The translations under genes were made by a program, and so were the position numbers. From Deltaproteobacteria bacterium (GTDB taxonomy: Bacteria; Desulfobacterota; GWC2-55-46; UBA9637), in contig JACQEJ010000084.1 of assembly GCA_016200645.1 (NCBI GenBank), positions 1 through 42,754 on the forward strand: DNA of 42,754 nt, in the 5' to 3' direction. Under the pieces are notes generated by a model, which did no database searches, was not told the origin of the DNA, and saw only the letters and a program-made list of their open reading frames with translations. Positions 9,791 through 29,791 of the stretch are shown piece after piece; position 1 is the stretch's first letter, and the number at the start of each line of letters is the position of its first letter.

Positions 9791-9806
9791 AAAATTTCAT
9801 GTAAAT

Positions 9807-9873
9807 CCCGCGCCACTTTCCATTACCAAGGCCGAAAATTAGTATATGCCTTGGCGCAGGAAAGTGGCGCGGG
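9807..9873. repeat. 67-bp hairpin repeat, copy 1 (tRNA-Met leader)
   Basis: Ends CCCGCGCC and GGCGCGGG pair. Inner arms CACTTTCC/GGAAAGTG and CCAAGGC/GCCTTGG extend the hairpin. It is nearly identical to copy 2 at 9975 and shares its ends with hairpins inside RNase P RNA. It lies 7 bp before tRNA-Met. Confidence 0.9.
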
Positions 9874-9880
9874 GTAAAAA

Positions 9881-9956
9881 GGGCCCATAGCTCAGTTGGA
9901 AGAGCCACCGGCTCATAACCGGTCGGTCCCTGGTTCGAGTCCAGGTGGGCCCACCA
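9881..9956 (+). tRNA. tRNA-Met (CAT)
   Basis: A full 76-nt cloverleaf with encoded CCA: acceptor GGGCCCA paired with TGGGCCC, anticodon stem ACCGG/CCGGT around CTCATAA (anticodon CAT, 9914-9916), T-arm CCTGG-TTCGAGT-CCAGG. It lacks the three G-C pairs of an initiator, so it is an elongator tRNA-Met, or a tRNA-Ile whose CAT is modified to read ATA. It is framed by two copies of the same hairpin repeat and has its own promoter. Confidence 0.95.
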
Positions 9957-9974
9957 GGCAGGCTCAATATTTAT

Positions 9975-10041
9975 CCCGCACCACTTTCCATTACCAAGGC
10001 CGAAAATTAGTATATGCCTTGGTGCAGGAAAGTGGCGCGGG
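9975..10041. repeat. 67-bp hairpin repeat, copy 2 (tRNA-Met trailer)
   Basis: Same length and nearly the same sequence as copy 1, in the same orientation; a few base changes (CCGCACC for CCGCGCC) lie in one arm. It starts 19 bp after the tRNA and ends 19 bp before the TTG start of the next gene. Confidence 0.9.
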
Positions 10042-10861: not shown

Positions 10862-11410
10862 TTGAAAGACAACCTTACATATAGGTTCCTCAAAAGATTG
10901 GCAGAAAATCTTGATATGGCCAAAACAATGAAAGAGTTTCCGGAAGTATCTGTTAAGGAGATACATTCTCTTTTTCTCAAACTTGCCGATACCTTTCGGC
11001 CGGAAGATACGGTTCATATCTATGTGGACGGGGCATCAAGGGGGAATCCGGGTGATGCCGGCATCGGCGTGGTTATCACAACTGAGGATGGGAAGATATT
11101 GAAAGCCCTGGGGAAATATATCGGCAAGACTACAAATAATGTGGCAGAATACCAGGCCCTTATTACTGCGTTAGGGGAAGCAAAGTCACTGGGGGGAACA
11201 GAGATTAAGATATTTGCAGATTCAGAGCTTATGGTTAAGCAGATAAAGGGCGAATATAAGGTGAAAAGCGCCGGTCTTTTGCCGCGTTATCAAGAGGCAA
11301 AAACTTTATTGATGAAATTCAGCAAATATGATATTATTCATATAAAGAGGGAAAAGAATGCGGAAGCAGATAGACTTGCAAATCAGGCAATAGATATGAA
11401 GGCTCGCTGA
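10862..11410 (+). CDS. rnhA: Ribonuclease HI
   Basis: A 182-residue protein. After a 50-residue helical N-terminal extension it has a complete RNase H fold with the four acidic residues: D56 (YVDGASRGNPG), E96 (NNVAEYQAL), D120 (FADSELMV) and D170 (EADRLAN). It cuts RNA in RNA-DNA hybrids, for example primers and R-loops. The start is TTG with a weak ribosome site; ATG codons at 10917 and 10929 would still leave the catalytic domain intact. Its stop codon lies within the first helix of RNase P RNA, so rnhA and rnpB overlap. It resembles the short RNase HI type with a GNPG motif common in Gram-positive bacteria and archaea. Confidence 0.9.
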   Translation: MKDNLTYRFLKRLAENLDMAKTMKEFPEVSVKEIHSLFLKLADTFRPEDTVHIYVDGASRGNPGDAGIGVVITTEDGKILKALGKYIGKTTNNVAEYQALITALGEAKSLGGTEIKIFADSELMVKQIKGEYKVKSAGLLPRYQEAKTLLMKFSKYDIIHIKREKNAEADRLANQAIDMKAR

Positions 11411-11431
11411 AGCGAGATGAGATGGCCGCTG

Positions 11432-11499
11432 CCCAGCGCCACTTTCTGTTACGAAGCATGGCAGAATTATCAAGTTTCGTGCCGGAAAGTGGTGCTGGG
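11432..11499. repeat. Hairpin repeat inserted in P3 region of rnpB
   Basis: CCCAGCGCCACTTTC and GGAAAGTGGTGCTGGG pair across a 68-bp element whose arms match the tRNA-Met-flanking hairpins, with a diverged inner loop. Confidence 0.85.
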
Positions 11500-11553
11500 T
11501 GGAGGAAAGTCCGGACTCCGCAGGGCAGGGAGGTCGCTAACAGCGACCGCCCA

Positions 11554-11612
11554 GCGCCACTTTGCATTGCAAGTCTGATTATAAAATCAGATTCAGCGCG
11601 GCAAAGGGGCGC
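11554..11612. repeat. Related hairpin inserted in P9 position of rnpB
   Basis: GCGCCACTTTGC pairs with GCAAAGGGGCGC (one mismatch). The inside holds a second hairpin TCTGATT/AATCAGA. The outer arm GCGCCACTTT is shared with the P3 and tRNA-Met hairpins. Confidence 0.7.
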
Positions 11613-11653
11613 CGGATAGGGAAAGGGCCACAGAAAACAAACCGCCTAAAAGG

Positions 11654-11736
11654 CAGGGGCTGGGGGCTAGGTATTAGGGGCTGGTTAAATTATTTAATGC
11701 TTTTTACCAGACTCTAGTCTCTAGTCCCTAGTCTCT
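11654..11736. repeat. Heptamer hairpin inserted in P12 position of rnpB
   Basis: Units GGGGCTG, GGGGCTA, GGTATTA, GGGGCTG face units CTAGTCT, CTAGTCC, CTAGTCT across an A/T-rich loop. This is the 7-nt-unit design seen elsewhere in the window, here inside a functional RNA. Confidence 0.85.
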
Positions 11737-11952
11737 GTATTTTTAGGTAAGGGTGAAACGGCGGGGTAAGAGCCCACCGCCCCGATGGTGACATCGGGGG
11801 CAGGGCAACCCCCTCCCGGAGCAAGACCAAATAGGAAGGCATTGAAGGATGGCCCGTCCGCGCCTTCGGGTTGGTCGCTTGAGGCGCTGAGCAATCGGCG
11901 TCCCAGATGAATGGTCATCGCCCTTTTGGGGAACAGAATCCGGCTTACGGTC

Positions 11953-11971
11953 TCGCTTCAGCGATTTTTTT
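11953..11971 (+). terminator. Possible terminator of rnpB
   Basis: TCGC-TTCA-GCGA is followed at once by a run of seven T. The stem is only 4 bp and overlaps the P1 3' strand, so this is a weak call. Confidence 0.4.
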
Positions 11972-12012
11972 GTGGTTCTTTTGTATGTTAGTTGAAGAAG
12001 CTGCCTAACTAA

Positions 12013-12226
12013 AAGAGGCATGGGGAATTTTTTCTGTCAAAACAATATTTCCATATTGCCAATGGAACGGCAGAGCAAACCAAATTTAGTAAATCCTATA
12101 CCCCATTGAACTTGCCTGAACAAAGCCTCTGGAAACCTGCCTAGCCTGGCAAAACACGAAGGCATTGGGGTCTTAAAAAAGGCACGGCAAAATTTGTTTT
12201 GACAGAAAAAATTCCCCATGCCTCTT
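12013..12226 (+). mobile_element. Structured inverted-repeat element, copy A
   Basis: A 33-bp perfect inverted repeat (12013-12045 with 12194-12226) encloses a core that matches copy B at 27992-28210. Shared blocks are CAAAACA at the inner left end, GGAACGGCAG (GGACGGCAG in B), ACCCCATTGAAC, CTCTGGAAACCTGCCT, ACGAAGGCATTGGGGT and GCAAAATTTGTTTTG. ACCCCA pairs with TGGGGT, and GCCT with AGGC inside it. No reading frame is present. The outer 26 bp of the arms are not shared with copy B. It lies between the convergent rnpB and ftsX. Identity is unknown; it may be a non-autonomous mobile element or a structured RNA. Confidence 0.75.
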
Positions 12227-12317
12227 CCAATGAGGTTTTTTTAAAGTAAATTCAACTTTTTTTACGAAAGAATCCTTTTTATAGCATAGAATGAGGAGGC
12301 GCGAATTCTTTCCGTCG

Positions 12318-27920: not shown

Positions 27921-27991
27921 GGGAGTCAATATATCAAAAAAACAGCAGAAAAGTCTACAAGTCGTTAATGAGGGTCAAAACAACCATATCG

Positions 27992-28210
27992 TTTGTGTCA
28001 GCAAGAAAATTTTTATGGCAAAACACATTAGTACAGCACCATTAGGACGGCAGTGTGGATCAAAATTTCCCTGAGCCAAGACCCCACTGAACGTGCTGCA
28101 ATGAAGTCTCTGGAAACCTGCCTTGCAATGCAAAATACGAAGGCACTGGGGTCGGGGAAAGAAGCACTGCAAAATTTGTTTTGCCATAAAAATTTTCTTG
28201 CTGACACAAA
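27992..28210 (+). mobile_element. Structured inverted-repeat element, copy B
   Basis: A 34-bp perfect inverted repeat (27992-28025 with 28177-28210) surrounds a core homologous to copy A at 12013: GGACGGCAG, GACCCCACTGAAC, CTCTGGAAACCTGCCT, ACGAAGGCACTGGGGTC and GCAAAATTTGTTTTG. GACCCCA pairs with TGGGGTC. The outer 27 bp of each arm differ completely from copy A, while the inner CAAAACA/TGTTTTG end is shared. It has no reading frame. The core is in the plus orientation, opposite to the kdsB and tilS genes around it. Confidence 0.75.
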
Positions 28211-28225
28211 ATAATTGACATTACC

Positions 28226-29791
28226 TTAGTCTAAAAGTTTTTTGACTTTTAGACTCGCAAACTGTTTTACCACCCCTATCTTCAACACCCTTTTTGTCTC
28301 CGGCCCCACTCTGCCATACGCACCCTGCCTTACACCTGCCACCCATATAATTTCATTGCCGGAGAGGATGAGCGGGATTAAACCTCTTTTGCGCCTCGGA
28401 ATCTTCTTTTCTATAAAGAGGTCTTTTATCTTTTTATGGCCGCTCATGCCGAACGGCACAAACCGGTCGCCGGACCTAAAGTTTCGTATGAGCAGGGGCG
28501 CTTTGAGTTTATCGTAATCAAAATAAGCAACCCTTTGAGATTTTAGATTTACCCCCACACCAAAATCTTTGGTGCGGGGGTTTACGATTTCAGATTTACC
28601 CCCACACCAAAATCTTTGGTGCGGGGGTTTACGATTTTGAACTTTTGTCTTAAACTCTGCAATCCTGAGTCCGCAATCCGCAATTACTTCTGTTCTGCCG
28701 TCTATTTCTAATTCCTGCTCAAATATAATGCCTCTGTCTTTCTTCTGACTTCTGACTCCTGGCTTCTGACTTCTTTCCATTGTCACCCTGTCATACTCCC
28801 TGTAAACAGTCAGGCCATGGGGCAGGTTAATTGAAATGTTCGGCGCTTTACCGGACAGCAGTTTTAAAAAATCCTCAACATGGCAACTGTAAAATCCCGC
28901 TGATGAGCCGAGAAGCTCCTCTGCCGCCATAAAAAACATCCTGACTTTGATTGCATCATGCAGACTGTTAAGTTTTTTTACCGAAAGAGCAACGGATGTT
29001 TTTCCTTTGCCCCTTGACCCTTGACCCTTGACCTTTTGCCCGCCCTTCACGCAATTCGTGTAAGCATCTTTTGCCTGACTGCACAGATAATCTTCATCCC
29101 TCGTAAGGATGCGGGAAAGCCTGGCCATGTCGTTTTTAAAGGCCGGGTTATATCCCATCAGCGCAGGCATAAGTTTAAGCCTTATATGGTTGCGAAGATA
29201 TTTGGCGCTTTGATTTGAGCTGTCTTTTACAAACTTTAGTCTTTTAGCTTCAGCGTATTTTTCTATCTCTACTCTGGTTATATCAAGAAGCGGCCTTATG
29301 TATTTTCCCCTTACAGCCGGAATGCCGCATAAACCCCTTAAGCCGGCGCCATTTAAAAATCTCATTACCATCGTCTCGGCCTGGTCATCCCGATTATGGC
29401 CTGTGGCTATTTTCTGCGCCTTATATTTTTTTGCAGTCTCCTCAAAAAATGCGTATCTCGCCTTTCGCGCGACATCCTGAAGAGAATCCCCCCTTTTGAG
29501 AAGCTTGCGGGTATCTACCCTTTTGCAAACACACGGGACGCCGAGCCTTTTTGCAAGGCTCCTTATAAAGGCCTCATCCATGTCGGATTCTTTGCCCCTT
29601 AAAGAGTGATTGATGTGGGCTGCAATGAGGGAAATCTTATATTCCGCTGCAAGCCTTGTAAGGATATGAAGCAGTACAACCGAATCCACACCGCCGGAGA
29701 CAGCGGCCACGACAGTGTCGCCCCTTTTGAGCATCTTGAATTTTTCAATGGTGTTTTTTGCTTTGTCCAGCATAGGGTTTTCAAGTATCAT
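28226..29791 (-). CDS. tilS: tRNA(Ile)-lysidine synthase with in-frame repeat insertions
   Basis: TilS changes C34 of tRNA-Ile(CAT) to lysidine. The N-type ATP-pyrophosphatase motif SGGVDS lies at 32-37, followed by AAHINHSLRG, ATGHNRDDQAETM and RPLLDITRVEIE. A C-terminal domain with LLIRNFRSGDRF and KKIKDLFIEKKIPRRKR is present. At 521 residues it is longer than usual (about 430-460). The surplus lies in three repeat-derived stretches: about 250-262 (KVKGQGSRGKGK), about 335-350 (RSQKPGVRSQKK) and about 368-418 (two tandem copies containing PHQRFW/RTKDFG). All keep the frame and fall outside the catalytic motifs, so activity may persist. Confidence 0.93.
   Translation of the reverse strand: MILENPMLDKAKNTIEKFKMLKRGDTVVAAVSGGVDSVVLLHILTRLAAEYKISLIAAHINHSLRGKESDMDEAFIRSLAKRLGVPCVCKRVDTRKLLKRGDSLQDVARKARYAFFEETAKKYKAQKIATGHNRDDQAETMVMRFLNGAGLRGLCGIPAVRGKYIRPLLDITRVEIEKYAEAKRLKFVKDSSNQSAKYLRNHIRLKLMPALMGYNPAFKNDMARLSRILTRDEDYLCSQAKDAYTNCVKGGQKVKGQGSRGKGKTSVALSVKKLNSLHDAIKVRMFFMAAEELLGSSAGFYSCHVEDFLKLLSGKAPNISINLPHGLTVYREYDRVTMERSQKPGVRSQKKDRGIIFEQELEIDGRTEVIADCGLRIAEFKTKVQNRKPPHQRFWCGGKSEIVNPRTKDFGVGVNLKSQRVAYFDYDKLKAPLLIRNFRSGDRFVPFGMSGHKKIKDLFIEKKIPRRKRGLIPLILSGNEIIWVAGVRQGAYGRVGPETKRVLKIGVVKQFASLKVKKLLD
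28540..28690. repeat. Tandem palindromic repeats inside tilS
   Basis: Two near-identical units of about 45 bp, each with the palindrome ACCAAAATCTTTGGT inside ACCCCCAC...GTGCGGGGGT-type ends, flanked by GATTTAC/GATTTCA and GCAATCC heptamers. It is read in frame. A single related palindrome lies in lptD at 32147-32168. Confidence 0.9.
28741..28779. repeat. Heptamer array, AGTCAGA family, inside tilS
   Basis: TTCTGAC, TTCTGAC, TCCTGGC, TTCTGAC units, translated in frame as RSQKPGVRSQ-type peptide. Confidence 0.85.
29008..29040. repeat. Heptamer array, AAGGGTC family, inside tilS
   Basis: CCTTGAC units repeated about four times, translated as KVKGQGSRGKGK. The same family encodes the N-terminus of TrpB. 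Confidence 0.85.

Follow-up and report, generated by a model that had tools for sequence, protein, structure and literature searches.

A probable mosaic miniature transposon whose conserved non-coding core recurs in several terminal-repeat frames

A short non-coding element in a 42,754-nucleotide stretch of DNA (the window, meaning the whole stretch that was analysed), here called copy A, is probably a decayed copy of a mosaic miniature inverted-repeat transposon (MITE) with an exchangeable shared core. The proposed element has two layers. The outer layer would be a frame with ISL3-type terminal repeats, mobilised in trans by a transposase of the ISL3 family whose target duplication is 8 bp long. 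The inner layer would be a non-coding passenger, conserved and about 184 bp in length, which appears to travel in other frames too. The arms of a second, internal inverted repeat would stay identical through template switching, with one arm being copied from the other as DNA is synthesised, and the same process between the arms would also flip the core. We infer that a change of frame may come about when repair following transposition replaces the interior.

Extent and parts of copy A

A sequence-only reading of this locus had described a structured element with a 33-bp perfect inverted repeat at 12013-12226. A sequence check confirms the repeat at 12013-12045 and 12194-12226. Folded as RNA, the 214 nt of this span give -82.7 kcal/mol, compared with -47.0 +/- 4.2 kcal/mol for shuffles (z = -8.6, 0/200), and the repeat is therefore not due to chance. 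While the inverted repeat had been placed correctly, the span is only the inner part of the element: alignment with siblings shows that the terminal repeats, 11974-11985 and 12263-12275, lie beyond the arms, and the full element is 11974-12275. The features, in window coordinates, are as follows.

11966-11973, no strand: left flank TTTTTTGT, at the expected position of the 8-bp target-site duplication, decayed
11974-12275, plus strand: complete miniature transposon with frame I (ISL3-type) ends, about 302 bp, a decayed copy (alignment with siblings L002-L006)
11974-11985, plus strand: left terminal inverted repeat GGTTCTTTTGTA (sibling consensus GGTTCTTTCGTA)
12013-12045, plus strand: left arm, perfect inverted repeat
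12028-12211, plus strand: passenger, a conserved non-coding module of inner arms and core (alignment A2, matches of model R2)
12100-12172, plus strand: most conserved part of the core, ACCCCATTGAAC...CTCTGGAAACCTGCC...CGAAGGCATTGGGGTC
12194-12226, minus strand: right arm, perfect inverted repeat
12263-12275, minus strand: right terminal inverted repeat TACGAAAGAATCC (sibling consensus TACGAAAGAACC)
12276-12283: right flank TTTTTATA, partner of the left flank in the expected 8-bp duplication, decayed
27972-28225, plus strand: copy B, with the same passenger; its right end matches an IS256-family end and its left end GGGTCAAAACAACC is of uncertain origin

Each end repeat of copy A has one mismatch, and 8-bp target-site duplications are kept in the siblings L002 (AAAAAAAC) and L003 (CACTTTTT). 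Comparing frames suggests that the left arm is itself composite, with about 12013-12027 probably belonging to the frame and 12028-12045 to the passenger. An RNase P RNA gene (11409-11963, Rfam scan) lies directly before copy A and an ftsX-type gene on the opposite strand after it; as judged by eye, copy A is located at the T-run of the apparent terminator of the RNase P RNA gene.

Copy A has the properties of a MITE

The element is short (about 302 bp), non-coding and dispersed, with about 39 copies or fragments found by a search of the window's own genome. It has terminal inverted repeats, and many intact copies carry target-site duplications, of 8 bp in frame I (as in L002 and L003) and 9 bp in frames II and IV. 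The ends are also shared with autonomous insertion sequences. In the relative G012, a fragment of an ISL3 transposase gene (PF01610, E 6e-14; the gene is broken) lies upstream of TACGAAAGAACC, and the end after this fragment matches the sibling consensus of the left terminal repeat. The link between these ends and a transposase thus comes from a relative, and an ISL3-family enzyme would presumably act on the frame ends of copy A itself. G001 contains a multi-copy, intact-length IS256-family element (PF00872, E 1.6e-83; many copies at contig ends), one end of which, GGTAATGTCAATTATTATGTGTCAGTAAGAA, is near-identical to the right end of copy B. The earlier statement that the arms cannot be ordinary transposon terminal repeats is right in that the arms are not the ends of the element, but a transposon still holds, given that ends and duplications lie outside the arms.

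No autonomous partner with frame I or frame II ends was found in the window's own genome. The longer ORFs in the neighbourhood of single frame IV ends, and of one frame I end, include no transposase: they are either host-type genes or lack a Pfam match. A context tally of the copies (ORFs of at least 100 aa), in which 13 copies, most of them truncated or decayed, have no frame assignment, shows no single preferred gene arrangement.

Prokaryotic MITEs such as QMITE2 of Coxiella burnetii are moved in trans by IS transposases, and they resemble the present element in being short, in lacking a gene, in having terminal inverted repeats and target duplications, and in forming a stable stem-loop (PMC10969869). 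They differ in two respects: here one conserved core is found in several terminal-repeat frames that are unrelated to one another, and the terminal inverted repeat encloses a second one. TIMEs, inverted-repeat miniature elements that are derived from Tn3 and give rise to mosaic transposons, likewise have non-autonomous ends carrying different cores (PMC4133298); however, TIMEs combine one kind of end with many cores, whereas here one core also occurs in many kinds of ends.

One passenger occurs in at least five frames

The core is common to copies A and B, as had been noted from the sequence, with 76% identity over 91 nt ungapped and 79% over about 114 nt by blastn. The outer 26 bp of the arms had been called unique to copy A; this is correct relative to copy B, but the sibling L002 differs at just one compensated position in a 32-bp arm. 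Copies A and B are unlike each other because the inner piece they share is housed in a different transposon frame in each. The left end of copy B, GGGTCAAAACAACC, has no counterpart at the second end of the only IS256 copy of G001 that was fully read. Copy B lies between kdsB-type and tilS-type genes. The tilS-type gene (28226-29791, minus strand) contains two tandem 47-bp palindromic repeats (CCCCCACACCAAAATCTTTGGTGCGGGGG type) at 28534-28627, which fall in frame between two of the predicted protein's domains; by blastn, the relative G003 appears to lack this repeat segment.

At least five terminal-repeat frames hold the same passenger, in two classes of the phylum: besides the ISL3-type frame there is one with an IS256-type end, one with GGAAGCATCC ends and 9-bp duplications, one with CAGGACTTTCCCC ends and 9-bp duplications, and one with GGTCTTCTCC ends. 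The last two are the end kinds seen in G304 and G219. In the window's genome, most copies outside frame I have GGAAGCATCC or GTAAGCATCC ends with 9-bp duplications. The frames also hold other contents: unrelated interiors are present within frame I ends in G002 and G004 and within frame II ends in G006, and the window's own genome has core-less frames, such as L082 with a CCCCCACACC palindrome instead of the core.

Several related arrangements were seen in passing. A CCCCCACACCAAA...TTTGGTGTGGGGG palindrome replaces the core or one arm in the frame I MITEs L082, L078, L054, L072 and L064 (around 1500-1660). Five G304 copies (L127, L148, L297, L301, L302) have a TCCCGAAAGCTTTCGGGA-type hairpin instead of part of the passenger, and in another, L149, the flanks are inverted (TGTTAGATCAA / TTGATCTAACA) rather than direct repeats. 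The G002 repeats L345, L346 and L348-L352 consist of GCTCCGTAGGAGCGACCTG-type hairpins, and frame I ends can be recognised in most of them.

The passenger aligns over about 165 nt with the copies of G304 and G219, which belong to another class and have other frames, and the joint alignment has about 40 invariant columns over that length. These conserved blocks indicate constraint, without telling its kind. Searches with model R1 (395 genomes of the phylum) and model R2 (two classes) located the passenger in just four genomes, G000, G007, G304 and G219; a truncated piece was also seen by eye in G002 (L347). The exact core pattern had no match in viral contigs, nor did blastn give one in plasmids and phages. 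The L035 locus of G007 is 99.9% identical over 2.8 kb to L012 of G000, so that this G007 copy may be on a mis-binned contig; the frame I copies of G007 are distinct. Both L012/L035 and L082/L059, loci common to the different genera G000 and G007, are 99.4-99.9% identical over 2.4-2.8 kb, reflecting either cross-binning or very recent transfer. The non-coding core outlives its transposon frame, a single module being found with at least five kinds of ends in two bacterial classes.

These observations raise the question as to whether the passenger is itself mobile and targets the middle of palindromes, in this case those of IS-derived MITEs. Its inner arms (TTTTTnAGCCnAAACA type) resemble one another across all frames, unlike the outer arms, it sits at the centre of a palindrome in each frame, and the same centre in L082 is occupied by another palindrome. 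However, neither a clear solo insertion outside a frame nor a duplication around the passenger was found, and no candidate enzyme was identified, making autonomous mobility unlikely. An equally doubtful proposition is that the passenger is an independent element, a conserved non-coding module under selection that passes between several unrelated IS-derived MITE families and parasitises them via their palindrome centres.

Arms change in lockstep and cores are flipped

Within frame I, the number of positions at which two copies differ is the same, or almost the same, for the left and the right arm. Over 31 positions, the mean difference is 0.2 between the arms within a copy and 6.4 between copies, and none of 20,000 permutations gave a within-copy value as low. 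In alignment A3, both sides have changed in 13 of 33 pairs; among its 283 pair cells, 27 are doubly changed, one is a one-sided change giving G-U and one is unpaired. The covariation of the arm pairs is far above shuffling and sliding controls, bearing in mind that related sequences can exceed shuffles without any structure. In addition, the cores of L022, L024 and L009 are inverted relative to their frames: the core aligns with siblings in one orientation, whereas the two halves of the frame correspond when exchanged. Asymmetric flanks are a further mark of flipped copies in frames I and IV.

Template switching between inverted repeats is documented to give both arm homogenisation and spacer inversion (PMC8604942). 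These two products occur together here, and template switching best explains the identity of the arms. Both outcomes are shared with the cases in PMC8604942 and PMC8794818, which concern short repeats in yeast genes and RNA hairpins, whereas here the process is inferred, in a mobile element, around an insert of about 150 nt. Of the two possibilities offered earlier, inverted copying of a flank upon insertion or arms kept identical by correction, the latter fares better, judging by the lockstep change, the near-absence of one-sided changes and the flipped spacers. The arms of frame II and of the G304/G219 copies are less perfect, with 1-5 mismatches in many copies, suggesting that correction is not uniform and is incomplete there. 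The arms could instead be matched at transposition and not afterwards.

Identical arms and inverted cores are equally the expected products of recombination or gene conversion between the arms, without polymerase template switching. A length of 33 bp is short for homologous recombination, and we consider this route possible but rather doubtful. The copies constitute natural replicates for studying arm homogenisation and spacer inversion.

Could selection on an RNA stem explain the arms instead, with arms and core together forming a functional structured RNA? The strong folding (z = -8.6), the double changes that preserve pairing and the core blocks conserved between two classes would all fit such an RNA. 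On the other hand, one G-U intermediate against 27 doubly changed among 283 cells is few for stepwise RNA compensation, arm mismatches have no clear strand preference, and no promoter-like site was found. The core itself, which had been thought to look like a folded RNA, has 15 weakly covarying pairs among G000 and G007 copies (RNAalifold), but across distant clades RNAalifold recovers little beyond a GACCCC/GGGGTC stem and the arm ends, and thus no conserved core fold with covariation. The near-absence of one-sided arm changes favours DNA-level correction over RNA selection; the outer-stem covariation, though strong, is better explained at the DNA level, and a functional RNA is quite improbable. 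The arms provide a clear case in which compensatory changes within a hairpin do not have to imply an RNA function.

The size of the element and the absence of a gene had suggested a stand-alone HEARO/IscB-type guide RNA, and an Rfam search had been proposed as a check. At gathering score, no family was found over copy A in a scan of the entire window. Permissive scans gave sub-threshold matches only for copy A, mostly hairpin microRNA models fitting the long stem, and for four sibling loci (2.4-3.2 kb), where part of the matches lay outside the element; HEARO was absent from both. The distant copy L130 gave nothing up to E = 1. A HEARO/IscB identity is extremely unlikely.

A further repeat in the window is a 69-bp direct repeat (97% identical) at 9805-9873 and 9973-10041, which flanks a tRNA gene at 9881-9953.
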